Source of the DNA: a virus
Virus record (IMG/VR): IMGVR_UViG_3300036860_000057
Span: 1 to 64,000 of that record
Strand: one strand, 5' to 3'
Length of the DNA stretch: 64,000 nucleotides
The notes below the pieces were generated by a model. The model saw nothing but the letters and a program-made list of their open reading frames with translations, made no database searches and was not told the origin of the DNA. Of the stretch, positions 6,955-54,436 are shown one piece after another. Position 1 is the first letter of the stretch. Every line of letters begins with the position of its first letter. The translations under genes and the position numbers were made by a program.

Positions 6955-8210
6955 TAGAAAGCTCCTTGTTTCATGTCAGATTTTTCAGACCACCTACTAA
7001 TCACTGGCAGCATCTCCAGATAATTTCTACATTCATAGAACTCATTAGCCAACTCCAACCACTCTTCAGGTGTGAATGTTATGTTGGTAAATGGTTGTCT
7101 TTCACAAGCATATTGCAGCGCTCGATTCACCAGACTTGAGTTATATTTTTTCTCTGTCACAATTACCTGAAGGATTGTCAGCGCTCCTTCAGCATGTCCT
7201 ACAGAAATCTCATCCAGTATGTCGAAGACACGCTGGACATGATCAGTATCTACAAACCACAGGAACTCAGGCATTGCTAAAATTTCCTCCACAAATTGTT
7301 GTGCAGTGTTCCCTGCAAGGCGATAGTCATTATAATCTTTAGAACTTCCTTGTCCAAAGAACTTAACTTCTGCATCTAATATATCTGCTAACTTAAAGGC
7401 TGCTGACCACTCAGACTGAGTGTTATCAGGAACAATGATTTTTTTCTTAGTGTTAGCTAGCAGTCTCTTTAGTTCTTGAGTCTGTTCACTCTCAGGATCA
7501 CTAAATCCTTCGATTGCTGAGAGTGAAATAGCAGGCAACCCGTCCTGCTCCGCAGTGAGTTGGTCGATGCTTCCGAACAGGATAATTACCAGTTCTTTAT
7601 TGATCAGGTGTCGTCCTAGCACTGATGGACGATTGAACGATTTTTTGCCCCAGTAGCGCCTAGGATTCACTCCAACAGGCCATGTCTTGGTAGGTGATGC
7701 TCTATACTGAAATATATCCACTTCACTCTTGTCTGGATAGCCTCGATAAAAGGGTAATACATAGGCATCTTTTTCAAAATCATATCCTAGCATGTGACTG
7801 TCTATTGTTTCATCTGATAAAAGTCTGCTATGCAAATATTCTCTTTTATCTGGTGTTAGTTGACTGTGCCAGAAGGTGATCCAAATACTAGGAACTGGGC
7901 CTCTATATTCAGATGAAGAAGCTGTAACTACTTTCTCAGGAAGAATACCTTCCCGATCAGCAATCCATTTCACGGCCTGTAAGAATGATAAGTTCTCTTG
8001 TTTCGTTACATAAGAGAAAATATCTACATAGATTCCACAAGAGTAACACTTAGCTCCATCATTATAGACATGAAGACTTGGATTGTGGTCATTATGCCAC
8101 AAACATTTTACTTTGTTGTCTTGATTTATAGTCTCATAAAGGCTCACTATTTGAGACATTGAGACTCTGGACTTTATTTTCTTTGTGTCGTAAACCAGAT
8201 TGTCTCTCAT
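6954..8210 (-). CDS. DnaG-like primase
   Basis: A 418-residue protein with an N-terminal CHC2 zinc finger (Cys36, His39, Cys55, Cys58) followed by a TOPRIM-like region (about 205-300), including SIDQLTAEQDG and VPDNTQSEWSAAFKLA. It would make RNA primers for replication with the DnaB-like helicase. The first TOPRIM acidic residue, usually Glu before the Gly, appears as Phe-Gly (ILFGSIDQL), a possible divergence at a catalytic position. The N-terminal 25 codons overlap the tail of the HNH gene upstream. Confidence 0.85.
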   Translation of the reverse strand: MRDNLVYDTKKIKSRVSMSQIVSLYETINQDNKVKCLWHNDHNPSLHVYNDGAKCYSCGIYVDIFSYVTKQENLSFLQAVKWIADREGILPEKVVTASSSEYRGPVPSIWITFWHSQLTPDKREYLHSRLLSDETIDSHMLGYDFEKDAYVLPFYRGYPDKSEVDIFQYRASPTKTWPVGVNPRRYWGKKSFNRPSVLGRHLINKELVIILFGSIDQLTAEQDGLPAISLSAIEGFSDPESEQTQELKRLLANTKKKIIVPDNTQSEWSAAFKLADILDAEVKFFGQGSSKDYNDYRLAGNTAQQFVEEILAMPEFLWFVDTDHVQRVFDILDEISVGHAEGALTILQVIVTEKKYNSSLVNRALQYACERQPFTNITFTPEEWLELANEFYECRNYLEMLPVISRWSEKSDMKQGAF

Positions 8211-9114
8211 AATATTTCCTAAACAATTCAGCAGCTATTAATATCTTATATCCCGTATGACTATCTAATTCTTGTGGATATTTATCATTCTTTATTGAAT
8301 TACAACTTCTACACAACCTCACTGCATTGCCGGGCTTAAGCAGATAACCTTTAGAGAACGGATAAACATGATCCACACATAGCTTGTTGATAGAACCACA
8401 TACTACACAAGATTTCTGGAATTTCTTGAGTGCCCTGTCCATCTCAGGAGTCCATTCTATTTTGGACAACTCCCGTTTTTCATTTTTCAATCTACTATAT
8501 TCTTTTGTCTTGGAGAGTCCGTGTGTTGTCAGCATATTCTTTATTTTACATCCACAACTAGTAGTATCCCCACAAGCTAGACTATAGCCTGAGACTATTT
8601 TTTCATTTCCACAGTCACATTGGCACTTCCAAGTTGATTGTCTATTTTTAGTGCTTCCTTCTCTGGAGATTACTGTGAGTCTGCCAAAACGTTTCCCAGC
8701 TAAATTTTTAAGGCTACGTTCAGATACCCGCTCTTTATTGAGACATCCACAACTCTTAGTTTTTCCTGATACTAAACTAGAACGAAAAACAACTCTTTCA
8801 TTCCCACAATCACACAAACACTTCCAGTAGTTTGATCTATTACTGGCCTTCTGATTTATTTTTTCTGTTACAACTAGTCTTCCAAATCTTTGTCCAACAA
8901 GATTCTTAAAATTTCTTTTACTTAAACTTTCCTTATGATAACATCCACAACTTACAATCCTACCCGCAACTATATTTGTGCCAAGAATTACCTTTTCTAT
9001 GCCACAATCACACTGACATAACCACTTTACACTACCACGCCTATCCCTACCAGACTCTTCTATTATCGTCAATCTACCAAATCTTTGCCCCACTAATTCT
9101 AGTTTCTTACTCAT
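8134..9114 (-). CDS. HNH homing endonuclease with three zinc-ribbon repeats
   Basis: A 326-residue protein with three tandem modules near residues 7-65, 72-130 and 137-195. Each starts like GQRFGRLTI, carries a CxCxCG pair and ends in SCGC; they are likely DNA-binding zinc ribbons. The C-terminal HNH nuclease has CVVCG, a central DHVYPFSKGY and CRSCNSIKND. It resembles the gene at 44409-45176, so the element has spread within this genome. It sits between replication genes and overlaps the primase start by 77 bases, as expected for a free-standing mobile endonuclease. Confidence 0.9.
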   Translation of the reverse strand: MSKKLELVGQRFGRLTIIEESGRDRRGSVKWLCQCDCGIEKVILGTNIVAGRIVSCGCYHKESLSKRNFKNLVGQRFGRLVVTEKINQKASNRSNYWKCLCDCGNERVVFRSSLVSGKTKSCGCLNKERVSERSLKNLAGKRFGRLTVISREGSTKNRQSTWKCQCDCGNEKIVSGYSLACGDTTSCGCKIKNMLTTHGLSKTKEYSRLKNEKRELSKIEWTPEMDRALKKFQKSCVVCGSINKLCVDHVYPFSKGYLLKPGNAVRLCRSCNSIKNDKYPQELDSHTGYKILIAAELFRKYYERQSGLRHKENKVQSLNVSNSEPL

Positions 9115-12521: not shown

Positions 12522-12586
12522 TTCTTCTGGAGAGGCTCGAACTCTCAACTGCCTTGCGGCATTTTGCCAATTAAACTACAGAAGAA
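12522..12586 (-). ncRNA. tRNA-like element without an anticodon loop
   Basis: A 65-nt minus-strand element with an acceptor stem (TCTTCTG/CAGAAGA), a normal D-arm (TAGTTTAATTGGCAAAAT) and a perfect T-arm (GAGAG-TTCGAGC-CTCTC). Where the 17-nt anticodon arm should be there is only TGCC-GCAA-GGCA, a four-pair stem with a GNRA tetraloop, so there is no anticodon. It may be a structural domain of the surrounding large RNA or a tRNA mimic. Confidence 0.7.
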
Positions 12587-12635
12587 ACCACTTCCACTGA
12601 TATATACAATGGGTTCGACAGTTGCCACTGTCTAG

Positions 12636-12708
12636 TGCCCCTACATGGATTTGAACCATGATCCATCGCTTAGAAGGCGATGGCACTTTCCGTTGTGCTA
12701 TAGAGACA
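12636..12708 (-). tRNA. tRNA-Arg (TCT)
   Basis: 73 nt. Acceptor TGTCTCT/AGGGGCA is seven pairs with G-U wobbles. The anticodon arm is ATCGC-CTTCTAA-GCGAT with anticodon TCT, which reads AGA, and the T-arm contains GGTTCAAATCC. No CCA is encoded. AGA-reading tRNAs are commonly carried by AT-rich phages. It sits inside the 1-kb structured transcript. Confidence 0.92.
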
Positions 12709-13152: not shown

Positions 13153-13731
13153 TTAGTTTTCCAACAGACCAAGTTCCTGAGCACCATGCAGCCTTCCACA
13201 CCCTCGACTCATAGCAAACCAAACACTCTCGTCCCATAGATGAGTTCCTACTTTATTATATTCAGGAACATAGAACATATTCCCACCAGGAATAACCAAG
13301 AGATATGGTTGTGCTAGTCTGTCACCATCTCGATAACCAACCAACAGTTGTGCATTATTCAGGTTCGTTCCTACAAATCCACGATCTAAATTAGGAATGT
13401 CCCACAACGAGAAGTATTGATCACAGGAAGGTGCTTGTGTAGCAGTGATCTTCACTTCGATAGTAGGTTCAACTGTTCCTTCTTCAGTAGGATCATCAGA
13501 TTCCTCTGTAGGCTCAGATGTTGGATCATTGGCAACTTCCTCAGTAGGATCAGTGTTATCATCTGTAGGTTCCTCAGTAACGCAGTGTGGATTATCTGGA
13601 TGATCACCATGCTCACATTCGTGACCGGGTGTATCATCACAACTCTTTCCATGACACTCATCAGCGAATGCTATGCTGACTGATAATAAAAATAGAACAA
13701 CCAAGAATATTACGAACATTATCTTTTTCAT
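13153..13731 (-). CDS. Secreted acidic repeat protein
   Basis: A 192-residue protein with a clear signal peptide (MKKIMFVIFLVVLFLLSVS, cleavage likely after AFA). A Cys/His-rich segment and a Thr/Pro/Glu/Asp repeat stalk (EPTDDNTDPTEE, DPTSEPTEES) follow to about residue 95, then a folded C-terminal domain with several aromatic residues. ATG follows AAAGGAACTCA. It is the last gene of the secreted cassette and probably acts at or outside the host membrane. I do not recognise the C-terminal domain. Confidence 0.8.
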   Translation of the reverse strand: MKKIMFVIFLVVLFLLSVSIAFADECHGKSCDDTPGHECEHGDHPDNPHCVTEEPTDDNTDPTEEVANDPTSEPTEESDDPTEEGTVEPTIEVKITATQAPSCDQYFSLWDIPNLDRGFVGTNLNNAQLLVGYRDGDRLAQPYLLVIPGGNMFYVPEYNKVGTHLWDESVWFAMSRGCGRLHGAQELGLLEN

Positions 13732-13740
13732 TGAGTTCCT

Positions 13741-13860
13741 TTATTGTCTGCTAACTTCTGAGTAAGAGATAGAATCACTGATCTGATGATCAGGATGAGC
13801 CTTATCATAGGATGCTGCTACAATCATTGCTATGATGAAAGCGATGAGTATCTTGTCCAT
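13741..13860 (-). CDS. Small membrane or secreted protein
   Basis: A 39-residue open frame, MDKILIAFIIAMIVAAS followed by a polar tail rich in His, Asp and Ser. GAGG lies seven bases before the ATG, and the stop is nine bases before the next start. One hydrophobic helix, either a signal peptide or membrane anchor. Function unknown. Confidence 0.6.
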   Translation of the reverse strand: MDKILIAFIIAMIVAASYDKAHPDHQISDSISYSEVSRQ

Positions 13861-13883
13861 TGGTATGCCTCGAAACGATCTAA

Positions 13884-13932
13884 AAATATCCTAAACGTTA
13901 TAGCACTATGGTACTATAAGAATAGGATATTT
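13884..13932. repeat. Nested inverted repeat before the small secreted genes
   Basis: AAATATCCTA (13884-13893) pairs with TAGGATATTT (13923-13932), and inside it TTATAG pairs with CTATAA. The hairpin lies 24 bases upstream of the 39-residue gene and may act as an operator, a leader hairpin or an RNA-processing site. Confidence 0.6.
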
Positions 13933-13963
13933 ACAAATATTTTGAGGCTGTATAACAGAATTG

Positions 13964-14227
13964 TTAGTGACCTAAAAGTTTCGTGAAGATTTTCCTGAGA
14001 AATGATTTAGGTTTAGGAGGAGTTGGTTCATCAAGTCCTAATAATATGTCCACTGATCTGTATTGTCTATATCGCAGCATAACTTTTAGCTTGTGGCGAC
14101 ACTGATCATGCACCTTGAAAGGCACGCCCTTATAATTAAAGATCACTAATGATCTCAGTAGAGGCATGTCACAAACTGGACACTTGTCCAAAAATAAGTG
14201 AGGCCAAGTCATTACCATTCTCTTCAT
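13964..14227 (-). CDS. Small Cys/His zinc-type protein
   Basis: An 87-residue basic protein with CPVC at about residue 16 and a later HDQCRHK, enough for a zinc site, and a Pro/Lys-rich C-terminal tail (PTPPKPKSFLRK). Its ATG overlaps the TGA of the lipoprotein gene upstream. Not recognised. Confidence 0.65.
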   Translation of the reverse strand: MKRMVMTWPHLFLDKCPVCDMPLLRSLVIFNYKGVPFKVHDQCRHKLKVMLRYRQYRSVDILLGLDEPTPPKPKSFLRKIFTKLLGH

Positions 14228-14841
14228 CTCAACACCGGATCAGAATATACTGTTCCACCCAACTCTATAGCAAACCACGTTGTAGGTATGGTTGTCTCAC
14301 GCAAATAGCAATCTGCATCAGCACTTCCCCAGTACGTGTCAATAGCCCAATACCATAAACAATGTACTAGGATAGGAACTGTAGTTGTATATCTGTCGTG
14401 GAAACCACAGTCAGTGCTAGGACAATCACGAATTCTGAGTTGTGAGCGAGGCTGATAGTATTGGTAGGTGATGATTTTCACAGGATAGGACAGTTCACCT
14501 ATAGGTGTGGGTGTTAGGAATCCAGTAGCAGCAGGTGTCAATGTTGGTGTGGGTGTTAACGTCTGTGTTGATGTCGGCGTATTAGTCGGCGTGGATGGTG
14601 CTTGAGTCTCTGTAGGAACTTCTGTATCAGTGGCAGTTGGTAAGGCAGTGTTCTCTTGAGTTGGCTCATTGGTTGCTGTCTCAGTTGGTGTGAGTTCTGG
14701 TGTAAAGAAGGTAACTTGAACTGAAGGTTCCGAAGTAGGAACTGTAGCAGGAAGAGTAGGAAAGGTTCCTGTAGGTGTGGAGACACATCCAGTCCATGTC
14801 AATATGGTAATTAGAAATAAAACTCTCTTTAAGTTAACCAA
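14224..14841 (-). CDS. Lipoprotein with Thr/Pro stalk and SH3-like domain
   Basis: A 205-residue protein with a lipoprotein signal (MVNLKRVLFLITILTWTGC, lipobox before Cys19), a long Thr/Pro/Glu stalk to about residue 120 and a C-terminal domain with four Cys and a pattern like bacterial SH3 (SQLRIRDCPSTDC). It is expected to be membrane-anchored and exposed, a useful form for superinfection exclusion or wall binding. It overlaps genes on both sides. TPTPT-type stalks are common in Chloroflexota proteins, hinting at host origin. Confidence 0.8.
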   Translation of the reverse strand: MVNLKRVLFLITILTWTGCVSTPTGTFPTLPATVPTSEPSVQVTFFTPELTPTETATNEPTQENTALPTATDTEVPTETQAPSTPTNTPTSTQTLTPTPTLTPAATGFLTPTPIGELSYPVKIITYQYYQPRSQLRIRDCPSTDCGFHDRYTTTVPILVHCLWYWAIDTYWGSADADCYLRETTIPTTWFAIELGGTVYSDPVLR

Positions 14842-15986
14842 TCGTTAAACACCCACCCAGTAATATTTCCTGTCCTAATATATGACCAGTTATCCAGCAT
14901 ATTCTCTACTTCAACGACTGTACCATTCTGAAGAGTAGTCAACACAGGTGACTGGAAATCAGGATGTGTTCTGACATTCAGTACACGAGTTCCAGTGCTG
15001 ACTATCTTTTCATTAGGTGGACGATGAGTTTCCATGTAAACATTCAGGCATTCAAATACTCTTCCTCTTACATCCCACTGCTGCCATACAGGAGAGAGTG
15101 CTCCAAAACAAAAGATAGTAGCCCCTACCACATAATAGTCTCTATAGAGTTGACGATCTGCCCATTCCAACATCTTTTCATAATACAATGCACCGTCTAA
15201 CTGATGATCATGAGCAGCCCAGTATGCTTGGCACTGAGTCCAAGGCCCTACAGGATAGCCTACCAGCTTATCTATTACATCTGTGCCAGCCCTATCTAGA
15301 CCCAATTCAGTCAACACTATCTTGATACGTGTCCAGCCATTAGGCAGGATGTGAGTTCTCCAGACCTTTCTATAGCGTCCAAACAGCCAGCCCTCTTCAT
15401 AGGTTGGTGGCATTTCTATTCGCTGATTGGCTAGCATCTGTTCACGTTGATTAGGACCATAGAACATATCCATGTACAGCCCACCATATTCGTGTAATCC
15501 TAAGTAGTTACTATAGAGATCACATGCTTCCAGCGCAGGATAGAAATGTTCCCAAGGATCATTCGTATCAGGCTTGATAGGTGGGGAGCCAGTTGAGAAG
15601 TTGCCTATACATGCAGAGAATCCTTCCTCATGCATGATTCTCTGGCGTTCTGCTTCGAACTTTCCATACTGAAGCATCCAGTCCCAGTTGCTCATTTCGT
15701 TAAATGACTCCCACTTGGCCCAAGGAGTCAGTGTCATAGCAGGACGAAAGGCATCTACCCAATACTTAGCTGCACCTACTGGATCAGTGAGAATTCTTCC
15801 ACTCTCCCATCGAGCGAAGTCATCTGCCTGCCCAAAGTCTCTGGCAATATAAACTTTCGTATCGCCATAGACATCATGTATCTGCTTGAGTAGAGAAGGA
15901 GAACCTGTTTTTACTACACGTGCATGTGACAGAGCAGGAATGAGTCCTGTGAAGCTATCAATGATAAAGTAGCCAAGCTTGGTCAC
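14829..15986 (-). CDS. Glycoside-hydrolase-like protein with SH3b domain
   Basis: A 385-residue protein starting at GTG after a strong GGAGGAGAAGG. The N-terminal ~310 residues look like a TIM-barrel glycosidase of clan GH-A type: Asn96-Glu97 in WESFNEMSNWDW is a typical acid/base pair and Glu227 in VLTELGLD a typical nucleophile. The C-terminal ~65 residues form an SH3b domain (RVLNVRTHPD, ITGWVFNDWL). No signal peptide is visible. It could act as a wall- or glycan-degrading enzyme, perhaps a lysin. The exact family and substrate are not known to me. Confidence 0.75.
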   Translation of the reverse strand: MTKLGYFIIDSFTGLIPALSHARVVKTGSPSLLKQIHDVYGDTKVYIARDFGQADDFARWESGRILTDPVGAAKYWVDAFRPAMTLTPWAKWESFNEMSNWDWMLQYGKFEAERQRIMHEEGFSACIGNFSTGSPPIKPDTNDPWEHFYPALEACDLYSNYLGLHEYGGLYMDMFYGPNQREQMLANQRIEMPPTYEEGWLFGRYRKVWRTHILPNGWTRIKIVLTELGLDRAGTDVIDKLVGYPVGPWTQCQAYWAAHDHQLDGALYYEKMLEWADRQLYRDYYVVGATIFCFGALSPVWQQWDVRGRVFECLNVYMETHRPPNEKIVSTGTRVLNVRTHPDFQSPVLTTLQNGTVVEVENMLDNWSYIRTGNITGWVFNDWLT

Positions 15987-17243
15987 TTAACCTTCTCCTC
16001 CCGGTAGATACTTATCAGCAAACTTCTCAGTCCCTATCTGAATCACCGACCAAGTAGTAGAACTTGAGCAGGAAGATGTTGATCCCCAATATTCCCCACT
16101 CTTCTCTTCGGCTATGCAGAAAAATTTAACAATGTCGCCTACAGTATAGGTCAGACCTGTCAGGTTAGTGGCGATGTTGTAATCTCTGGAAGTCCTGATA
16201 TTCGTGACACGAGTATACTTATAGTATTCATCTGCATTATAAAACGCAGGAAACGATCCACTGGCAGGCGTAGGAGTCACTACTGATGTTGGTGTGGAAG
16301 TAGGTATAGGTGTAGAACTAGGAACACTTCCACCAGAACACACAACAGACAAGTCGTCTAGGTAATTATTATTGTTTCTGAAAGGCCATAGCCTTATATT
16401 ATCGTAGAAAATAGTAGTCTTAGTGCTAGTTGCTACGAAGTCATAAGACACTTTCGCCCAGCGATCATACACACCATCATCATAACCAAAGGCACGAGAT
16501 TTCAGCACACCGCCAGCAAAAGCATTCGTTCCGCCAGCAGTGTCTACTAGGATATAGAATGTGGCATTTGCCTTGTCATCTGTTGTAAATAAATGACTCT
16601 TGTGCGGATCAAGATCACCATCTGCACCAGACCATGCTTGAACATAGCCAGTTGCAGTACAGGATGATCCTGGAACAGTTGTTATTGTCTGATAAATTCC
16701 TCCTTCTATGGCACGATAGAAACCAAAGTATTCTACTGCATTCGTTCCACTATGAATTCTCAAGGCATCCTGATCTACAGCAGCAGGCTTATATTCTGGT
16801 CTGCCTAATTTTAATCCTGTAGGATTGCCAGTTCCTTGTCTGTAAGCAGGACATCCATCACAGTAAAATGCTGTCCAATCTCTTGGAACAATATGATAGA
16901 ATCCATCACTATGAAGTTTACTAATATATGGTCCTTCCAGTCCACCATCTTTGAACAAGTTAGTTCCCGTTATCTGAGTAGGAACAGCAGTAAGACTTGG
17001 CACTACTGTAGGTGTCTTAGTAGCTGAAGGTACAGCAGTGGGAGAGGGGTTTGGCGGGGTTGGGGTGAGGGTAGCGCTAGCGCTACTGGCAGGGGTAAGT
17101 GTTACTATCTTCTTGCAATAGATAGAACCTGATCCATCTGCATAGAGATCAGCTTTACAGTCAGAAGCATTGAACTCTGTGTGAGTAGCGCCTGCACAAG
17201 CAGTAAGTAAAATAAGTGCAATGAGGATGATGTATCTTTTCAT
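15987..17243 (-). CDS. Lipoprotein with Thr/Pro linkers and carbohydrate-binding-like domain
   Basis: A 418-residue protein with a lipoprotein signal (MKRYIILIALILLTAC, lipobox LTAC). A Thr/Pro/Ser linker follows at about 48-95, then a 200-residue beta-rich middle domain that resembles sugar-binding jelly rolls (LFKDGGLEGPY, VPRDWTAFYCDGC), a second linker (PTSTPTSVVTPTP) and a small C-terminal domain. It should be anchored on the outer face of the membrane. It is the first gene behind the promoter at 17426-17453. It could bind host or competitor surface glycans, which is inference. Confidence 0.75.
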   Translation of the reverse strand: MKRYIILIALILLTACAGATHTEFNASDCKADLYADGSGSIYCKKIVTLTPASSASATLTPTPPNPSPTAVPSATKTPTVVPSLTAVPTQITGTNLFKDGGLEGPYISKLHSDGFYHIVPRDWTAFYCDGCPAYRQGTGNPTGLKLGRPEYKPAAVDQDALRIHSGTNAVEYFGFYRAIEGGIYQTITTVPGSSCTATGYVQAWSGADGDLDPHKSHLFTTDDKANATFYILVDTAGGTNAFAGGVLKSRAFGYDDGVYDRWAKVSYDFVATSTKTTIFYDNIRLWPFRNNNNYLDDLSVVCSGGSVPSSTPIPTSTPTSVVTPTPASGSFPAFYNADEYYKYTRVTNIRTSRDYNIATNLTGLTYTVGDIVKFFCIAEEKSGEYWGSTSSCSSSTTWSVIQIGTEKFADKYLPGGEG

Positions 17244-23998: not shown

Positions 23999-24008
23999 AT
24001 ATTGATGT

Positions 24009-24074
24009 GGACCTGCTTGGAGTCGAACCAAGTTCTTGTCCCAACCTACGGGACAATCGATACCCATCAGGCCC
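24009..24074 (-). ncRNA. D-arm-reduced tRNA-like element, 66 nt
   Basis: Acceptor GGGCCTG/CAGGTCC is seven pairs and the T-arm CTTGG-TTCGACT-CCAAG is perfect. Between them are 11 unpaired bases and one long arm, TTGTCCC-GTAGGTT-GGGACAA, seven pairs with a seven-base loop. There is no proper D-arm. If the loop is an anticodon loop, T33 is present and the anticodon would be AGG (Pro), but T at position 37 is unusual. It is either a D-armless tRNA or a tRNA mimic. Same transcript as the 65-residue gene upstream. Confidence 0.65.
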
Positions 24075-24098: not shown

Positions 24099-24296
24099 CT
24101 AGTTGTGTGCGTAGACGTAGGTTTCAGCAGAGTTACTAGCTCTGGCGAGTTCCCATGTCTTACTCTTCATCAGCAGCTTCTTCAGTCTGTCTGTCTTAGT
24201 TCCCAGAGGAAATTCCCGTAGGAATGGAAACTCTGTGAACCACATTTGACACACACCGGAACCATACAAGAACTGAATACGGAATAATTTTCTCAT
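24099..24296 (-). CDS. Small basic protein between two tRNA-like genes
   Basis: A 65-residue basic protein, MRKLFRIQFLYGSGVCQMW at its start. ATG at 24296 has GGAG five bases upstream; an ATG just before is too close to that site. It lies between the 47-nt and 66-nt tRNA-like elements on the same strand and probably on one transcript. Unknown family; binding one of those RNAs is a testable idea only. Confidence 0.6.
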   Translation of the reverse strand: MRKLFRIQFLYGSGVCQMWFTEFPFLREFPLGTKTDRLKKLLMKSKTWELARASNSAETYVYAHN

Positions 24297-24329
24297 CATA
24301 TCTCCTGTGAGTGTGGGCAGATGAGATAA

Positions 24330-24376
24330 TGGTGCAGCAGAGACTCGAACTCTGTGTAGGCCCACCTACCACACCA
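24330..24376 (-). ncRNA. 47-nt minimal tRNA-like element
   Basis: Acceptor TGGTGTG/TGCACCA has seven pairs and the T-arm CAGAG-TTCGAGT-CTCTG is perfect with a canonical T-loop. D and anticodon arms are replaced by one five-pair hairpin, GTAGG-TGGG-CCTAC. All but two bases are in these elements. It begins about 20 bases after a predicted transcription start, so it looks like a purposeful first product of the transcript rather than a chance remnant. Confidence 0.7.
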
Positions 24377-24436: not shown

Positions 24437-24925
24437 TTAGTATTTGTTATGAAGGTGTTTCCAGACCTTTCCTAGTTTTATACGAGATATGGCAACTTCA
24501 CTTACATTGTATATCTTAGCTATTTTACTCTGCTTGATTTTATTGCTATTTAGTAATTTTATTATCTCTATTACTTGCTCTTCTGTTAATTTAGCACTAC
24601 CATGATTCTCTCCAATAGACTTAACAATCCTTCCTTTGGATTTACAGTCTTTCATATTGTCATCTTGTGTACCTAGTTTGAGGTGATTAGGATTAACACA
24701 AGAAGGATTATCACAGAGATGCATCACTAGTTTATTATCCGGTATGTCTCCATTTACTAACATCCACGACAATCTGTGTGCTCTGTATCTCTTGTGATCA
24801 ATAGCAATAATTCCATAATTATGATGATCTTTGTGCCCTAACCATTCCCAGCACTCACTATCTGATTTCTTGTTTATTTTGCTCCAAAAGTATTCAATTG
24901 GATTCATCTTTCCAAATTTGCTCAT
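24437..24925 (-). CDS. HNH homing endonuclease (HNH_3 type)
   Basis: A 162-residue protein with the HNH pattern CWEWLG, HRLSWMLVNGDIP, HLCDNPSCVNPNHLKLGT and DNMKDC, followed by a C-terminal helix-turn-helix (EEQVIEIIKLL, QSKIAKIYNVSEVAISRIK) for DNA recognition. The start at 24925 has AAGGA seven bases upstream. It is a free-standing mobile endonuclease of phage type, just upstream of the tRNA-like unit. Confidence 0.9.
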   Translation of the reverse strand: MSKFGKMNPIEYFWSKINKKSDSECWEWLGHKDHHNYGIIAIDHKRYRAHRLSWMLVNGDIPDNKLVMHLCDNPSCVNPNHLKLGTQDDNMKDCKSKGRIVKSIGENHGSAKLTEEQVIEIIKLLNSNKIKQSKIAKIYNVSEVAISRIKLGKVWKHLHNKY

Positions 24926-24944
24926 AATTTGTTCCTTCATTTAC

Positions 24945-36328: not shown

Positions 36329-36778
36329 ATGCCCGATTTAGTGAATGACCCAGCATATCAAGCTGCTACGAAAGAGCCTGAGCCTACTGCTCTTGAAGTG
36401 ATTATTGCGACTGTGAAGAAATGGGCAGCAGTGCTGTCTGATCCTCGTACAGTGGCAAGTGTGATTACAGTTTATGGTACTTTTAAGATGATTGCACTTG
36501 CACTAGGCTATGCAGACTCTAAACTCTCTGATAAGGACATCACCGATCTTCTTCAGAGTTCTGCTGCACTTCTAGTTGCATTTGCAACATTTCTGACTGT
36601 GGTAGGTTCGATTGTAACAATTGTAGTCGTGTGGATTCGCAGTTGGACAGAGCGACCATCACGCGGTCTGTCTCCTTGGCTGAAGAAAGTTTTTCCTGTT
36701 GATGAGCCTAAGACAATTGTATCCACAGCCACCATTAGTACAACAACTGTCCCCCCAGATGATGGTGCTGTAGGCTAA
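36329..36778 (+). CDS. Membrane protein, possible holin
   Basis: A 149-residue protein with a good binding site (GGAGG). It has two to three hydrophobic segments (VASVITVYGTFKMIALALGY; AALLVAFATFLTVVGSIVTI), a basic segment after them (RSWTERPSRG) and a Thr/Pro tail. Size and topology fit a holin or other small phage membrane protein; no family signature seen. Confidence 0.6.
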   Translation: MPDLVNDPAYQAATKEPEPTALEVIIATVKKWAAVLSDPRTVASVITVYGTFKMIALALGYADSKLSDKDITDLLQSSAALLVAFATFLTVVGSIVTIVVVWIRSWTERPSRGLSPWLKKVFPVDEPKTIVSTATISTTTVPPDDGAVG

Positions 36779-36808
36779 CCTCTATATTCCCTCTCTTGTG
36801 TGTGTGTA

Positions 36809-41135: not shown

Positions 41136-41753
41136 ATGGATAAAGTATTTATTTACGGGCTAGTCGATCCTAGGACGAATCTGATCAGATATATTGGGTG
41201 GACGCCTAATGCTAAAATAAGATATGGAAAACACATAAATGAAAGCAAAAGAGAAACCAACCATAAGGCTAATTGGATCAAACAACTCTTATCTCTCAAT
41301 CTAAAACCAGCTTTAATCATTCTTGATGAAGTATCTGTTGAAGATTGGTCATTAGCTGAATCTGCTTGGATACTCTATGGGCTGGAACAAGATTGGCCTT
41401 TGACTAATATGACACTGGGAGGGGAAGGAACACTAGGTTGTATTCCCTCTAGGGAAACTCGAAATAAGATGAGAGAATCTGGCAAAAAGAAGATATTTTC
41501 TGACGAACATAGGGAAAATATGAGAAGGGCAGGTTTGGGGAAAATACTTTCAAAAGAAGCCAGAAGAAAAGTTAGTGAAGCAATGAAGGGAGAAAATAAT
41601 CATCAAGCCGCTCTTACTGAACAGTTAGTTATTGAAATAAGAGAACTTTATGACAGTGGCATGAAAGTGTGTGATATTGCCAAGAAATATGAGAAATCTT
41701 ATTATACAATCTATAATGTGGTTACAAGGCGCAATTGGAATCATATTTCTTAG
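41136..41753 (+). CDS. GIY-YIG homing endonuclease
   Basis: A 205-residue protein with an N-terminal GIY-YIG nuclease (IYGLVDP and IRYIGWT), catalytic Arg/Glu region (WSLAESAWI), a NUMOD3-like middle with repeated Ser-x-Glu-x-Arg motifs (SRETRNKMRESGKKK; SDEHRENMRRAGLGK; SKEARRKVSEAMKG) and a C-terminal helix-turn-helix (VCDIAKKYEKSYYTIYNVV). A mobile gene lodged between terminase and portal. Confidence 0.93.
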   Translation: MDKVFIYGLVDPRTNLIRYIGWTPNAKIRYGKHINESKRETNHKANWIKQLLSLNLKPALIILDEVSVEDWSLAESAWILYGLEQDWPLTNMTLGGEGTLGCIPSRETRNKMRESGKKKIFSDEHRENMRRAGLGKILSKEARRKVSEAMKGENNHQAALTEQLVIEIRELYDSGMKVCDIAKKYEKSYYTIYNVVTRRNWNHIS

Positions 41754-43814: not shown

Positions 43815-44389
43815 TGCCCCAATATGGCCCTACTGACGAACAGAATCAAGAATACACCGATCTTCAAGAAGAGATAGAGAATAAGTTCAAGGATATAGGA
43901 TCAGAATATAAAAATGGTAATCTCTCATCTGACGAGTTTGAGAAGAAGATGAGAGATGCCATTATTGACCATCTAACTGCTCTTGCCGTTTTAGGAAAGG
44001 GAGGAGAGTTAGATGAAGATGATATAGATGATCTTACTGATTTCACTGATGGAATTCTTGATCTCCTTGAAGAGTACGTCTTGTTTGTCAGGAACCCAGA
44101 TGAGTTCTCAGAAGATTACCTGAGATGGCGCTCTGGTCTGTATAGTAATGCTAGACAGGTTTTCATGAGATTTACCATGCCTCGTGATATATGGATTATT
44201 CTTCCTGAGATGCCAGGAGATAATTGTCTGGGGGATGGAAAATGTGGTTGCAGTTGGGACATTTCAGTATATGAAGATGGAACAATCGAGGCAACGTGGG
44301 TATTGGGTGACACATTTCACTGCGAAATATGCATTTCAAATAGCATTGAGTATAGTCCGTATGTAATATCTGCTGGTGATCAGGAGTGA
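43814..44389 (+). CDS. Putative head morphogenesis protein
   Basis: A 191-residue acidic protein starting at the last base of the portal stop. Helical N-terminal half; the C-terminal half has a Cys-rich block (DNCLGDGKCGCSWD ... TFHCEICISNS) like the C-terminal Cys/His segment of SPP1 gp7-type minor head proteins. Position after the portal gene fits. The full minor-head domain is not evident. Confidence 0.5.
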   Translation: MPQYGPTDEQNQEYTDLQEEIENKFKDIGSEYKNGNLSSDEFEKKMRDAIIDHLTALAVLGKGGELDEDDIDDLTDFTDGILDLLEEYVLFVRNPDEFSEDYLRWRSGLYSNARQVFMRFTMPRDIWIILPEMPGDNCLGDGKCGCSWDISVYEDGTIEATWVLGDTFHCEICISNSIEYSPYVISAGDQE

Positions 44390-44408
44390 TTTGTGGTATA
44401 GTATAAAT

Positions 44409-45176
44409 ATGGGATTTACAAAAGTTCTTGATTTAATTGGAAATAAATATGGGGATTTTGTAGTTACTAACAGGATCAAGGGAAGTAAAAACAAACCCGC
44501 AAAACAGGAACTTACTTGTTTGGTATGTGGAAATGTAAGAACACCTACTACTAACAATCTTAAAAGATATAAATGGAAGCATGAAGAGATTTGTAATAAT
44601 TGGTATCTTGAAGACTATGACAGAAATCTTATTGGTAAATCTTTTGGATACTTAGATGTGATGTATCGAACAAGAATAACACCAACTGGCGTTCCTTATT
44701 ATATGTGCAGGTGTAAATGTGGAAATACCAAAGAAGTTCGAGGAGTTCATATTAAAAGAGGAAAAACTTTAAGTTGTGGATGTTATAGAAAGAGTCTGTT
44801 AACAAAGCACGGACTTTATAAAACACCAGAATACAGAAGATGGTATGTAAACAAGAGGAGAGAAAGACACATCAAATATGATAGCTATTGGACTCCTCAA
44901 ATGGCTATTATGTTAAAGGAATCTCAGTCTAGTTGTGTGGTCTGTAAATCCCAAGATAGGCTTGAAATTGATCATGTAAATCCTTTATCTGAAGGATATG
45001 GATTGTATCCCGGAAACGCTATTATTTTATGTCGCCTGTGTAATAGAACAAAGAAAGTTAGTAGGTTAGATGATCTTCCCCCAGACTGGTCTGATAAGAT
45101 CATAGATGCTATGCTAGACTTCAAAATCCTCTGGCAAAGCAGACACAGTATTAAGCTAGAGACAGAGACTATATAG
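44409..45176 (+). CDS. HNH homing endonuclease with zinc-ribbon repeats
   Basis: A 255-residue protein with two zinc-ribbon-like modules (LIGNKYGDFVV...CLVCGN; LIGKSFGYLDV...CKCGN...SCGC) and a C-terminal HNH domain (CVVCKS, DHVNPLSEGY, CRLCNRTKK). It is clearly related to the gene at 8134-9114 but with one module less. ATG at 44409 has no good binding site. It interrupts the head gene cluster and ends inside a terminator hairpin. Confidence 0.9.
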   Translation: MGFTKVLDLIGNKYGDFVVTNRIKGSKNKPAKQELTCLVCGNVRTPTTNNLKRYKWKHEEICNNWYLEDYDRNLIGKSFGYLDVMYRTRITPTGVPYYMCRCKCGNTKEVRGVHIKRGKTLSCGCYRKSLLTKHGLYKTPEYRRWYVNKRRERHIKYDSYWTPQMAIMLKESQSSCVVCKSQDRLEIDHVNPLSEGYGLYPGNAIILCRLCNRTKKVSRLDDLPPDWSDKIIDAMLDFKILWQSRHSIKLETETI

Positions 45177-48869: not shown

Positions 48870-49115
48870 ATGACCCACTCTACTCTTACATGGTTCAGTG
48901 GTGTAATTAAGCCAAGCCAATCAGAAGATCAGATTCTAATTGCAATGCCAACTCTAAATGGTGACAAGATAGAAGTAATACCAGATTTATTTAGGTACAA
49001 CAAGAAACAAGATGTATTTACTTCTCGCGCCATTCCAGGACATGTAGATAGGAAAGATGTTAGATATTGGGCCTATGTGCCACTCTATTTGGAAGATCAC
49101 GAAGGAAAAGGTTGA
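48870..49115 (+). CDS. Small hypothetical protein
   Basis: An 81-residue protein, AAGGAAG before the ATG. Beta-rich (ILIAMPTLNGDKIEVIP). Its last codons contain the -35 box of the tRNA promoter. Not recognised. Confidence 0.65.
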   Translation: MTHSTLTWFSGVIKPSQSEDQILIAMPTLNGDKIEVIPDLFRYNKKQDVFTSRAIPGHVDRKDVRYWAYVPLYLEDHEGKG

Positions 49116-49140
49116 CAAGTGTTGAAAATTGTGCTATCAT
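49112..49140 (+). promoter_or_regulatory. Promoter of the tRNA cluster
   Basis: TTGACA and TATCAT are exactly 17 bases apart, 112 bases before the first tRNA. Confidence 0.8.
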
Positions 49141-49252: not shown

Positions 49253-49324
49253 GCGTGTGTGGTGTTAATGGTAGCATCACACTCTTCCAAAGTGAAGGTT
49301 AGGGTTCGAGTCCCTACACACGCA
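49253..49324 (+). tRNA. tRNA-Gly (TCC)
   Basis: 72 nt. Acceptor GCGTGTG/CACACGC, loop CTTCCAA with anticodon TCC (reads GGA), T-arm TAGGG-TTCGAGT-CCCTA, discriminator A, no encoded CCA. Starts two bases after boxA. Confidence 0.93.
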
Positions 49325-49361
49325 CAAGCTGGGGTGTTCCCAGCATAGCAAGGAGACACTT

Positions 49362-49442
49362 ATGTACTTCGTGCCGCTTCTCTCGTCTACAGGTCAAATC
49401 CTCCCCGATTGGCTTAGGCAAAAGAAGCTATCGTCACCGTAG
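49362..49442 (+). CDS. Possible 26-residue peptide
   Basis: AAGGAG lies seven bases before an ATG that opens 26 codons (MYFVPLLSSTGQ at start). It lies between two tRNAs. Could be chance; no similarity known. Confidence 0.3.
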   Translation: MYFVPLLSSTGQILPDWLRQKKLSSP

Positions 49443-49491: not shown

Positions 49492-49562
49492 ACATCTGTG
49501 ATCTAATGGTAAGAGCACAATCTCCAAAATTGTGAATCCTCGTCCGAATCGAGGCAGATGTG
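49492..49562 (+). tRNA. tRNA-Trp (CCA)
   Basis: 71 nt. Acceptor ACATCTG/CAGATGT with G discriminator as in most Trp tRNAs, anticodon arm ACAAT-CTCCAAA-ATTGT with anticodon CCA, T-arm CCTCG-TCCGAAT-CGAGG. The T-loop has C at its second position, a small deviation. Confidence 0.9.
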
Positions 49563-49596
49563 CTGACCAGTTATCATCATTCCAAAGGAGGAATAA

Positions 49597-49752
49597 ATGT
49601 TCAACTGGGGCCGTATAAGAACGGTGCTATTGGGGTTGCTTCTTATTGCAGCAGGACTAATTCTGGCGTTCAATCTGAACTTCACCAACATGAATTATGT
49701 CCTTGCTGTACTGGCAATCTTCGATGGCGTTCTATGGATTATATTTCCATAG
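49597..49752 (+). CDS. Small membrane protein inside the tRNA cluster
   Basis: A 51-residue protein with an excellent binding site (AAAGGAGG). MFNWGRIRTVLLGLLLIAAG begins it; two hydrophobic helices follow (TVLLGLLLIAAGLILAF; VLAVLAIFDGVLWIIF). Its place within a tRNA operon is odd. Function unknown. Confidence 0.7.
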   Translation: MFNWGRIRTVLLGLLLIAAGLILAFNLNFTNMNYVLAVLAIFDGVLWIIFP

Positions 49753-49758
49753 AAAAAT

Positions 49759-49803
49759 GGAAGGTCTGATACTGGAGTAAGATGTTCGAACCATCAGCCT
49801 TCC
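49759..49803 (+). ncRNA. Possible T-arm/acceptor tRNA-like hairpin
   Basis: GGAAGGT/GCCTTCC form a seven-pair acceptor and GATG-TTCGAAC-CATC a four-pair T-arm; no other arm exists (45 nt). However, CTGAT can pair with ATCAG instead, giving a longer simple hairpin, so the tRNA-like reading is uncertain. Confidence 0.4.
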
Positions 49804-49834
49804 AGTTGCCCATGAGGGCATTTTCCTGCGGATT

Positions 49835-49869: not shown

Positions 49870-49941
49870 GCCAACATAGCACAATGGTAGTGCAAATCTT
49901 TTGTAAAGATTAGGCTGAGAGTTCGAATCCCTCTGTTGGCT
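49870..49941 (+). tRNA. tRNA-Thr (TGT)
   Basis: 72 nt. Acceptor GCCAACA/TGTTGGC, anticodon arm AATCT-TTTGTAA-AGATT with anticodon TGT (reads ACA), T-arm GAGAG-TTCGAAT-CCCTC with one A-C mismatch, discriminator T, no encoded CCA. Confidence 0.92.
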
Positions 49942-50009
49942 CTTAGGGCAGTAAGTGTGGGGCAAGGCTTAGGCATAACCTTGAATATCTGTACTGCCCT
50001 ATATAAATT

Positions 50010-50120
50010 ATGAGAGACATATTATTTATTGTTGTATATGTAGCTGGTGAGTTAGTTGCAGTCCTGACAGATTGTGTAATTCTTGTTGGTGCAGTTCTGT
50101 ACGTCATATTGAAATGGTAA
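50010..50120 (+). CDS. Possible 36-residue membrane peptide
   Basis: ATG at 50010 opens 36 codons, nearly all hydrophobic (MRDILFIVVYVAGELVAVL...VILVGAVLYVILKW). No good binding site. Composition argues for a real membrane peptide. Confidence 0.45.
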   Translation: MRDILFIVVYVAGELVAVLTDCVILVGAVLYVILKW

Positions 50121-50128
50121 TTATAGAT

Positions 50129-50184
50129 GGGCCAATTATTCCGGTGAATGCTAGCTATGGCGGATTCGACTCCCGCTTGGTCCG
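50129..50184 (+). ncRNA. 56-nt minimal tRNA-like element
   Basis: Acceptor GGGCCAA/TTGGTCC (seven pairs) with G discriminator. The T-arm, directly adjacent as in tRNA, has loop TTCGACT and a stem of four pairs plus one A-C mismatch. Between them are only 24 bases with a four-pair hairpin ATTC-CGGT-GAAT. No anticodon arm. Closely parallels the 47-nt element at 24330. Confidence 0.65.
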
Positions 50185-51155: not shown

Positions 51156-51776
51156 ATGACAGTTGGAGAAATGGCAATAAGTGGAGAGGTATCAGCACGG
51201 CTAATTAAAGGTCATGTGCAAGCCCCTCTATCGTGGAAAATTCGTAATTCGCTTCGTCCTTCATTTATTTCAGGTTTACTTGGTTATAAAGCAGCCCAGA
51301 CACTCTCTAATCTGACAGGAATCCCTACTCTTGTAGCTGATCTCAGAGCAGTCAAGATTGATGGTAGGACTGGTCAGAGAATTGATTATGGCGTAGTTAG
51401 TAGAAAACTAGTAACTACAGCTTTTGTCAACTTCCTGGTGGATATGCTTCAGGTAGACACTACTGAGATTGGAGACTTCAAGTTTCATGACAGTGGTGTA
51501 GGAACAACTGCTGAGAATGCTGGTGATACAGGAATTGAGACAACTGATGGTGAGTCTCGTGCTACTGGTTCCCAGACAGAGGGTGCATCAGCTAATATTT
51601 ACAAGTCAGTTGGAACGATTGCTTATACGACTACTAAAGCAATCACTGAGCATGGTGTGTTTAGTCAATCCACTGGTGGAACGTTGATGGATCGTTCTGT
51701 GTTTACTGCTATCAATGTGGTCAACGGCGATCAAATTGAATTCACATATTCGCTGACTGCAAGTAGCGGTGGCTAA
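51156..51776 (+). CDS. Structural protein, probably tail or fibre related
   Basis: A 206-residue Thr/Gly/Ser-rich beta-type protein (FHDSGVGTTAENAGDTGIE; SQSTGGTLMDRSVF). ATAAGGAGATATT precedes the ATG. Such composition is typical of phage structural decoration or fibre proteins. Not recognised precisely. A LAGLIDADG gene on the other strand overlaps its last four bases. Confidence 0.6.
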   Translation: MTVGEMAISGEVSARLIKGHVQAPLSWKIRNSLRPSFISGLLGYKAAQTLSNLTGIPTLVADLRAVKIDGRTGQRIDYGVVSRKLVTTAFVNFLVDMLQVDTTEIGDFKFHDSGVGTTAENAGDTGIETTDGESRATGSQTEGASANIYKSVGTIAYTTTKAITEHGVFSQSTGGTLMDRSVFTAINVVNGDQIEFTYSLTASSGG

Positions 51777-52339
51777 GAGCCTCTCTTATTAAGTTGTTGC
51801 ATTAAATCATAAGATGCTCTTTGTTTTTCAATATCTAAATTATATTCAGGAATAGGTAATAGTTCTTGATGTGTAATGGCAATTAGAGCCTGCCTCTTCT
51901 TTCGTATGAGATAAGGCTCTATTTGTTTTAACAGTGTAAGGGCAGCATCAGAGTTTATTTGTATTTGGTATCTGGTTGTGTGTTTTCTATTTGATGGCTC
52001 CCACACAACTATAGAACCAACACCAATTTGATCAAGAATCCATTGCATTACAAAAATATTATTATTTGTAAATGCAACACGAATAGATATTTTGTTTCTG
52101 CTTTTATACATAAATATTGATCCATCAGCATCAATAAAGCCCGCAATGTAGGCCGATATAGTTGGAACTAATACGTTGCACTGTGATCCAGATCGGTATC
52201 GGGCTTCTCCAGAACATTTCCTTGAGCAAAACACTTGCTCATAGTCTGGATAGAATCTACTTGTTTGTCCAGGAGGACATACATCAAACTCTTCTTTACA
52301 AGAAGGGCAGATTTTCTTAATTGGAATTGTCTTTGCCAT
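51773..52339 (-). CDS. LAGLIDADG homing endonuclease with zinc ribbon
   Basis: A 188-residue protein. The N-terminal zinc ribbon has CPSC (about 12) and CSRKC (about 38); then AYIAGFIDADGSIF is the LAGLIDADG helix with catalytic Asp, followed by the expected strands (SIRVAFTNNN, RYQIQINS) and helix (ALTLLKQIEPYL). Single-motif enzymes act as dimers. It lies on the opposite strand between two structural genes; AAGGAG precedes the ATG. Confidence 0.9.
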   Translation of the reverse strand: MAKTIPIKKICPSCKEEFDVCPPGQTSRFYPDYEQVFCSRKCSGEARYRSGSQCNVLVPTISAYIAGFIDADGSIFMYKSRNKISIRVAFTNNNIFVMQWILDQIGVGSIVVWEPSNRKHTTRYQIQINSDAALTLLKQIEPYLIRKKRQALIAITHQELLPIPEYNLDIEKQRASYDLMQQLNKRGS

Positions 52340-52402: not shown

Positions 52403-54436
52403 GTGGCAATAACCTTCGTTAATGCTGGTGCTGAGGCTGCTGCTGGAAGTGGCAACATCACACTCAATGCGCCCGCCAGTCCTCAAACTAATGACATCTG
52501 GATAGCTGTGATTCACACGTCTGATCAGAATGCTATGACGATGGATGCTGCTTGGACACAGATATATCAAGGCAATGGTGGAAGCACTACTAGTAGATTA
52601 GCTGTATTTTGGTTCAGATATGCAGGAAGTAACCCAACACTTACTGTCACACACACAAGTGGACAAACTATTATTGGTGGAATAGCCTCCTTCAGAGGAT
52701 GTGTGACATCAGGAAGCCCGGTGGACACAACTGGTGCTGGTGGTTCTGGCACTGATGCTTCTATTGAACACACTACCATTACTCCTACTCATGATAACTG
52801 TATGCTGGTTGCCTGTAATGGTGCGGCTGATGATAATAATCGTTCTACTCTTCCTACTGGTTTTACAGCAGGGTTTGAAGATTCTTCTGGTGGTACACAA
52901 AATTGCTATCAAGATGCCACTGGTAATCCTGATGGAAGTGTAGCATGTCACTGGAAAGTTCACACTACAGGATCAGCAGGAACAGTTACAGATACAATGG
53001 CTGCTTCTGATCCTTGGGCCAGTGTTCTGACATCATTAAAGCCGTTTCTTGCTCAGTCAGTAGCAGGAACTCTTACTTCTTCTGGAGCAATAGCCAAGAA
53101 AGATAAGAAGACACTATCAGGAACACTAACATCTGCTGGTGCTATAGCTAAAAAAACACTCAATAATATACTTGCTGGAACACTTACCAGTTCAGGGATT
53201 ATAACTAAGAAGGACAAGAAGGTATTGGCTGGAACTCTTACCTCTTCTGGAACAGCCTTTGAGAAAATAAAGAAGGTATTGGCTGGAACTTTAACTAGCT
53301 CAGGTTCTTTAGTAAGAAAGACTAAGAAGGTTCTTAGTGGTGTATTGTCTTCTGCTGGATCACTTGCTACTCAATTTATTCCTGGTGGTAATTTATATAC
53401 AAAATCTATAGAGGGAACTCTAACCTCTGCTGGAACACTTGTCAAGAAAACCAGCAAGCAATTGTCAGGCACTTTAACATCTGCTGGAACCTTATCTAAG
53501 AAGGCTCTTAAGTCATTAGCTGGTACATTATCTTCTTCTGGAACTTTGTTTGAGAAGATCAAGAAAACTCTTGCAGGCACTCTAACTTCATCTGGTTCAG
53601 TGTCAAAGAAAACACTCAAGTCATTTAGTGGCACACTTAATGAGTCAGGTGTTGTGTTTAAGAAATCTATCAAGTTCTTTGCAGGCACTCTAACCAGTTC
53701 TGGAACAGTATTTGAGAAGATCAAGAAGTCTTTGGGTGGAACCCTAACATCAACAGGTACTCTATCACGCAAGACTCTCAAAGTTTTAAGCGGTATCTTA
53801 GCTACTGCTGGCGATCTCTCTACTCAGTTTATCTCTGGTTCTGGTGGATTCTTTACCAAATCAGTGAGTGGTGTCCTTACTACTTCTGGGACAATTTCTA
53901 AGAAGACATCTCACAAGTTATCTGGAACATTCACATCTTCTGGTGTTGTAATAAAGAAGAGCTATAAATCATTCTCTGGAGTGCTGACATCTTCTGGAAG
54001 TTTAATTCGTAAGACTAAGAAATCTCTGTCAGGAGTTATAACTAGCTCTGGTGCTCTGACTGTTAGAAGAATATTTTCTAAGACACTATCTGGTACATTA
54101 TCCTTTACTGGTAGTATTTCAAAGATTACTCATAAAAGATTATCTGGTGTATTATCTAGTACAGGAAATGTAACAAAACTTACTCGATACTTCCTGTCAA
54201 GGGCCATTAGTTTTTCTGGGTCATTAATAGGATTTATTCCACCGGATATAGGGTTTGGTGTAGTAACTGTCCTTCAAAAGAGGACAACGAGCGTATCTGT
54301 ATCACTGGATGAGTTCTATGAGATAGATGTGGAAGAAATCAGTGATCAGGTAGTGGCGGAAGATAATGAAATCTATGGAATATCTGTAGAACTGATTAAT
54401 GTCTTTGAAGTTGAAATTGAAGAATACTCTATATAG
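52403..54436 (+). CDS. 21-repeat structural protein
   Basis: A 677-residue protein, GTG start with GGAG seven bases upstream. Residues 1-220 form a Thr/Gly-rich beta domain. From about 222 to 613 there are 21 tandem units of about 18 residues, consensus LSGTLTSSGxLxKKxxKS. Units 6 and 14 carry an extra TQFI...TKS insert, so a larger period of eight units exists. A 64-residue acidic tail ends it. Probably a fibre, whisker or stalk protein. No signal peptide. Confidence 0.75.
   Translation: MAITFVNAGAEAAAGSGNITLNAPASPQTNDIWIAVIHTSDQNAMTMDAAWTQIYQGNGGSTTSRLAVFWFRYAGSNPTLTVTHTSGQTIIGGIASFRGCVTSGSPVDTTGAGGSGTDASIEHTTITPTHDNCMLVACNGAADDNNRSTLPTGFTAGFEDSSGGTQNCYQDATGNPDGSVACHWKVHTTGSAGTVTDTMAASDPWASVLTSLKPFLAQSVAGTLTSSGAIAKKDKKTLSGTLTSAGAIAKKTLNNILAGTLTSSGIITKKDKKVLAGTLTSSGTAFEKIKKVLAGTLTSSGSLVRKTKKVLSGVLSSAGSLATQFIPGGNLYTKSIEGTLTSAGTLVKKTSKQLSGTLTSAGTLSKKALKSLAGTLSSSGTLFEKIKKTLAGTLTSSGSVSKKTLKSFSGTLNESGVVFKKSIKFFAGTLTSSGTVFEKIKKSLGGTLTSTGTLSRKTLKVLSGILATAGDLSTQFISGSGGFFTKSVSGVLTTSGTISKKTSHKLSGTFTSSGVVIKKSYKSFSGVLTSSGSLIRKTKKSLSGVITSSGALTVRRIFSKTLSGTLSFTGSISKITHKRLSGVLSSTGNVTKLTRYFLSRAISFSGSLIGFIPPDIGFGVVTVLQKRTTSVSVSLDEFYEIDVEEISDQVVAEDNEIYGISVELINVFEVEIEEYSI
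53066..54230 (+). repeat. Tandem coding repeat, about 54-bp unit
   Basis: Twenty-one diverged copies of a ~54-bp unit within the previous gene, e.g. GCTGGAACTCTTACCTCTTC. The copies vary at silent positions, so the protein repeat is conserved more than the DNA. Confidence 0.85.

Follow-up and report, generated by a model that had tools for sequence, protein, structure and literature searches.

The tRNA cluster and element E2

The window, a 64-kb stretch (64,000 nucleotides) of a 78.6-kb viral record, contains on its plus strand a cluster in the order tRNA-Gly, ORF26, tRNA-Trp, ORF51, element A, tRNA-Thr, ORF36, element E2, and on its minus strand two smaller groups (element B, ORF66, element D; and tRNA-Arg, element C). 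The five lettered elements are tRNA-like, lie outside the called genes, and have small ORFs and normal tRNAs near them. Each of the four small ORFs is flanked on both sides by a tRNA or a tRNA-like element, and none of the four matched a family in a Pfam search. The features are as follows.

Plus strand
49112–49140, promoter-like TTGACA-17-TATCAT with TG before the second hexamer (11 of 12 matches), upstream of the cluster
49253–49325, tRNA-Gly(UCC)
49362–49442, possible 26-aa ORF (ORF26) with AAGGAG upstream, between tRNA-Gly and tRNA-Trp
49492–49563, tRNA-Trp(CCA)
49597–49752, 51-aa hydrophobic ORF (ORF51) with AAAGGAGG upstream, between tRNA-Trp and element A
49759–49804, element A, 46 nt (acceptor 7/7, T-stem 4/5, A73; possible hairpin UAC-UGGA-GUA)
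49807–49820, terminator-like hairpin just after element A
49870–49942, tRNA-Thr(UGU)
50010–50120, possible 36-aa hydrophobic ORF (ORF36) without a clear ribosome-binding site, between tRNA-Thr and E2
50129–50184, E2, 56-nt tRNA-like element (sequence, descriptor scan, covariance model R1)
50129–50135/50177–50183, E2 acceptor stem, GGGCCAA/TTGGTCC
50138–50149, E2 mini-hairpin AUUC-CGGU-GAAU
50160–50176, E2 T-arm, GCGGA-TTCGACT-CCCGC
50184, E2 discriminator G (G73)

Minus strand
12522–12585, element C, 64 nt (acceptor 7/7, D-arm with GG, T-stem 5/5, A73)
12635–12707, tRNA-Arg(UCU), upstream of element C
24008–24074, element D, 67 nt (acceptor 7/7 with G3-U70, T-stem 5/5, A73)
24099–24299, possible 66-aa ORF (ORF66) with AGGAGA upstream, between elements B and D
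24330–24375, element B, 46 nt (acceptor 7/7, T-stem 5/5, hairpin UAGG-UGGG-CCUA, A73)
24432–24403, promoter-like TTGACA-18-TAGAAT, upstream of element B

An ORF on the same strand immediately precedes each of elements A and E2: A begins 7 nt downstream of the stop codon of ORF51, and E2 begins 9 bases downstream of that of ORF36. Promoter-like sites in the cluster region are no more numerous than in shuffles. Just after tRNA-Thr, an inverted repeat (AGGGCAGTA...TACTGCCCT, 49943–50003) encloses CAAGG...CCTTG and is possibly another structured RNA. Homing-endonuclease-like ORFs are located at 8134–9114, 24437–24940 (HNH_3), 41136–41753, 44376–45176, and 51773–52339, and some twenty copies of a short LAGTLTSSGTLxKK-like repeat make up most of a 677-aa ORF at 52403–54436.

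E2 reads GGGCCAA-TTATTCCGGTGAATGCTAGCTATG-GCGGA-TTCGACT-CCCGC-TTGGTCC-G at 50129–50184 on the plus strand. The first-pass annotation had placed a 56-nt minimal tRNA-like element in the tRNA cluster, and this is borne out by the sequence, the descriptor scan, and the nearby tRNA-Gly, tRNA-Trp, and tRNA-Thr genes. The tRNA-style junction of acceptor and T-arm, with a G discriminator, also holds: the acceptor forms 7/7 pairs (including one G-U at 3-70), the T-arm, with the T-loop TTCGACT, abuts the acceptor without a gap, and residue 73 is G, though the T-stem, with A53-C61 in place of the closing pair G53-C61, has only four of its five pairs. Within the 24-nt spacer, the sole clear hairpin has 4 bp and a 4-nt loop (ATTC-CGGT-GAAT in DNA), in agreement with the proposal that a four-pair hairpin stands in place of the D and anticodon arms; an anticodon arm with a 7-nt loop is absent. 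When E2 is folded freely, it has no extra stability relative to shuffles (z −0.16) and the T-arm is not chosen, the energies being −15.8 kcal/mol for free folding versus −15.0 kcal/mol with the tRNA-like fold imposed. The observation of E2 is confirmed, and its reading as a reduced tRNA-like element is supported.

Five elements in one phage

The descriptor calls for a 7-bp acceptor, a T-arm contiguous with it, and a short spacer; it finds five anticodon-less tRNA-like elements in the 78.6-kb record, all of them in the window; the last 14.6 kb of the record contain no such element. The earlier statement that the same reduced plan occurs at two distant loci on different strands stands with respect to repetition and falls short in number, which is five. 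The plan is shared in a loose sense, as the elements measure 46, 46, 56, 64, and 67 nt and C keeps a D-arm; the loss common to all five is the anticodon arm. Element C has GCC-GCAA-GGC in place of that arm and retains the full D-arm, element D consists of one long hairpin without a D-arm, and elements A, B, and E2 each have just one short hairpin with GG in its loop. A hairpin with a GG loop can be drawn in all six minimal elements tested (A, B, and E2, with three from other phages), the product of the shuffle probabilities being ~3e-4, a post hoc value. In A, B, and E2, this short hairpin is read as a remnant D-arm, the GG of which could still meet the T-loop.

A strict scan (T-loop TTCGANYC, acceptor 7/7, T-stem ≥4/5, spacer ≤32), evaluated against a first-order Markov null, predicts 0.01 matches per 64 kb; the window has four, and a fifth with a spacer of 35. 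In 2.08 Mb of other DNA, the same scan gives six matches of E2's grade (7/4), several of which adjoin tRNAs. With the looser loop TTCRANY, three matches of grade 7/5 are observed versus 0.043 expected, and two of grade 7/4 versus 0.36 expected. Acceptors with 5/7 or 6/7 pairs are not in excess in the window. The Markov expectation overall runs from ~0.01 (strict T-loop, four of the five elements counted) to 0.7, compared with five elements seen. The original argument that repetition speaks against chance is supported, and it is strengthened by the five elements here and by the same kind in many phages.

The covariance model R1 was built from 38 elements of other sources only, with none from the window, and it matches four of the five window elements: C (E 2.1e-12), B (E 2.8e-6), D in part (the T-arm half with a different 5′ boundary, 24008–24055, E 1.3e-4), and E2 (14.4 bits, E 0.0042 in 78.7 kb); A is not reported in the search of 78.7 kb. 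Since R1 also matches normal tRNA, these matches indicate tRNA-likeness and not absence of an anticodon, and loss of the arm is read separately. The class D-arm is GCTC/GAGC with a GG loop; C has a D-arm, and E2, A, and B have the short GG-loop hairpins only. ARAGORN and Rfam report only normal tRNAs in the window, with E2 unmatched even at E values up to 5 or 10 and no Rfam family called for the window elements.

Other readings of the E2 sequence were rejected. The tRNA-like domain of tmRNA likewise consists of an acceptor and a T-arm, and the G3-U70 pair occurs also in E2 and D; however, tmRNA has a tag frame and pseudoknots, E2 is 56 nt long with neither, and no tmRNA match is given by ARAGORN or Rfam. 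The idea of an alanine minihelix fails because G3-U70 is present only in E2 and D, and E2 has G73. Matches to the pattern GGGCC...GGTCC in IMG/VR are mostly unpaired and are attributable to chance, apart from normal tRNA-Ala.

Related elements in other viruses

Phage records and IMG/VR were searched at the DNA level and with the capsid-region, terminase, polymerase, and portal proteins, and no useful relatives of this phage emerged. The phage is an orphan in the collections searched, and therefore the kind of element was searched for instead. Long TPTPT/PTP linkers in the proteins encoded at 13153–17243 may hint at the host, as this linker style is common in Chloroflexota.

In the search pattern, the consensus sequences of D-arm and T-arm are set so near each other that an anticodon arm does not fit between them. 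The pattern occurs in at least 120 stretches in viral contigs of IMG/VR, and among the 80 matches listed, 46 have a perfect acceptor and T-stem. Within 857 kb of pattern loci, the combination of short spacer, perfect acceptor, and perfect T-stem is found 62 times, compared with 1.0 expected; most of the 62 are the pattern matches themselves, and the others, among them a 56-nt element in L027 and L090, are not. Linker lengths are bunched, and no viral match has fewer than 18 nt from GG to the T-arm. Anticodon-less tRNA-like genes are common in viral contigs. Most of the class is missed by tRNA finders, and similar genes are mostly unannotated. The corresponding scan of bacterial genomes was contaminated by masked runs of N, and N-free matches alone were used.

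Several members lie beside tRNAs. The 56-nt element of the two viral loci L027 and L090 adjoins a 65-nt element and tRNA-Gln, and a Lactobacillus xujianguonis scaffold that is also in IMG/VR contains 46-, 65-, and 59-nt elements among six normal tRNAs. This phage-like tRNA cluster (L107, 6700–8720; L245, 5080–7095) includes further T-arm-like stretches. Terminator-like hairpins are located just downstream of the elements in L051, L070, and L087. The Polaribacter phage Danklef_1 has a 58-nt anticodon-less element annotated as tRNA-OTHER.

One member is in Lactococcus phage bIL309:
bIL309 36732–36792 (= L135 3001–3061), 61-nt tRNA-like gene without an anticodon, preceded by an extended −10 promoter

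In bIL309, this 61-mer lies between the lysin gene and the attachment repeat. It or a relative is present in 44 phage records, nearly all without annotation of it, and an identical 61-mer with unrelated flanks occurs in Lactococcus phages of the P335 group. At the equivalent place, the relatives D6890 and 98101 have a 74-nt tRNA-Met(CAU), from which the 61-mer can be derived by deletion of 10 nt between TAAC repeats plus 3 nt. The full tRNA at this place in some relatives indicates that deletion within a genuine tRNA gene can give rise to an element of this kind.

Acceptor pairing is preserved as sequences change. In the pooled alignment, 97.5% of cells are paired, but the pooled covariation partly reflects different parent tRNAs, and weight was therefore placed on related pairs. 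Between L051 and L070, which have homologous flanks, the acceptor pair G2-C71 is replaced by A2-T71, and between L022 and L054, which have unrelated flanks, C4-G69 is replaced by G4-C69. The Danklef_1 element and one in an Oleispira MAG are identical in D-arm, linker, and T-arm, and five acceptor pairs differ, all of them paired in both. Badly broken acceptors in some pattern matches elsewhere indicate that decay also happens.

Possible origin and roles of the anticodon-less elements

We tentatively prefer, at somewhat short of even confidence, the reading that E2 is a tRNA-derived 'top-half' RNA that is excised by tRNA enzymes and punctuates a transcript of tRNAs and small ORFs. E2 would keep the acceptor, the T-arm, and a shrunken D-hairpin whose GG could dock on the T-loop, the decoding half being gone. 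The acceptor, T-arm, and GG hairpin form the part of tRNA that is bound by RNase P and RNase Z, and the CCA-adding enzyme and EF-Tu also bind the parts that are kept. E2 would most likely share an operon transcript with the tRNAs and small ORFs around it; host RNase P would cut at G1, and RNase Z or another 3′ tRNA nuclease would cut after the discriminator. Cuts at the tRNA or tRNA-like element on either side could then release each small ORF from the longer RNA, in the manner of t-elements.

Transcription, processing, and the punctuating role are what we infer; the observations in favour of the top-half reading are the five elements compared with ~0.01–0.7 by chance, their placement, the wider class, and the covariation. 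The alternation with small ORFs in the window favours processing sites. Against this reading are the mismatched closing pair of E2, its lack of special folding stability, and the behaviour of R1, which matches normal tRNA and does not report A, and against punctuation in particular is the status of ORF26, ORF36, and ORF66 as putative genes. In addition, members elsewhere look free-standing, given the bIL309 promoter and the terminators in L051, L070, and L087, and punctuation is not needed there.

For the elements as a whole, it is nearly an even proposition that a class of non-decoding RNA has gone unrecognised in phages infecting many different hosts, a tRNA minus precisely its anticodon arm and as short as 46 nt, which undergoes compensatory changes and may have a job outside translation, for example punctuation or the countering of tRNA-directed defences. 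The usual explanations for tRNA genes in phages, codon usage and replacement of cleaved host tRNAs, both fail for an RNA without an anticodon. If the class is common, phages would keep the top half of tRNA for its own sake, and tRNA genes may be reused in phages for a purpose other than making protein. The class is directly testable in Lactococcus phages such as bIL309, TP712, and ul36.

The strongest alternative, which we consider possible although on the unlikely side, is that the elements are decaying tRNA genes whose anticodon arm was lost by slipped-strand deletion and whose remainder has not yet been lost. The derivation of the Lactococcus 61-mer from tRNA-Met(CAU), the badly broken acceptors noted above, and the broken pair closing the E2 T-loop are consistent with decay. 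However, the acceptors are 7/7 in five of five window elements with no excess of 5/7 or 6/7 examples, homologous copies change compensatorily and not randomly, the bunched linkers have a lower limit of 18 nt among viral matches, and the Lactococcus element has persisted through replacement of its flanks.

Somewhat more doubtful is the alternative in which the mature anticodon-less RNA is itself the product and, as a decoy or sink, ties up host factors with affinity for the acceptor and T-arm; proposed targets include acceptor-end nucleases and toxins, modification or processing enzymes, and EF-Tu. In agreement with this, the bIL309 61-mer, located past the lysin gene and close to the attachment site, has an extended −10 promoter to itself, the 61-mer is identical among Lactococcus phages with unrelated flanks, and terminator-like hairpins follow the L051, L070, and L087 elements. 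Own promoters or terminators in Lactococcus and some other phages favour a free RNA there, perhaps a decoy for tRNA-directed defences, and an immune nuclease with acceptor and T-arm recognition, Cas12a3, does exist (PMC12851939). In the window, by contrast, A and E2 lie so directly behind ORFs that there is no room for a promoter. Moreover, the elements do not have an acceptor sequence or discriminator in common, which does not point to one particular aminoacyl-tRNA synthetase or tRNA-specific nuclease.

A chance match at E2 is highly improbable: that E2 alone folds no better than shuffles would fit chance, but the strict Markov expectation is 0.01, E2 lies inside a tRNA cluster, and the independent model R1 matches it (E 0.0042 in 78.7 kb). 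Least credible of all is that the elements are attachment sites or tRNA fragments from integration; the 3′ half of a tRNA gene is a frequent component of phage attP sites, but the elements here also have the 5′ acceptor strand, with 7/7 pairing, five different elements occur in one phage, the 29-bp end repeat of bIL309 (taken as the att core) is ~130 bp from the element, and the 78.6-kb record, which is possibly incomplete, has no tyrosine integrase or resolvase (PF00589, PF00239), which speaks against an attachment site. tRNA-dependent lysogeny has been described (PMC10865867).

The preferred top-half reading has parallels in known systems. The t-elements of archaea and mitochondria are processing sites (PMC4326828); those of plant mitochondria and Haloferax, like mitochondrial tRNA punctuation, are likewise tRNA-like, are under no requirement to decode, and flag the positions in long transcripts where RNase P and RNase Z cut. 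They come from organelles and archaea, and none is described in phage in the literature searched, whereas phage processing is proposed here. The mascRNA of MALAT1/MEN-beta (RF01684) is likewise tRNA-like, ~60 nt long, non-decoding, and freed by tRNA enzymes, but it is eukaryotic, and Rfam does not assign the window elements to RF01684. Arm-deficient mitochondrial tRNAs of nematodes and mites are likewise very short and have lost whole arms; they keep the anticodon arm and decode, whereas the phage elements lack that arm. The literature search found these arm-deficient tRNAs, t-elements, and tRNA-dependent lysogeny, and, in a library that excludes most subscription papers and bioRxiv, no description of anticodon-less phage tRNAs, an absence that is no proof. 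'Undetermined' phage tRNAs are listed by annotation software without interpretation; one of them, the 58-nt tRNA-OTHER of Danklef_1, is of the same kind, and the unspecified tRNA reported in prophage phiKW2 (PMC3757294) is a candidate.
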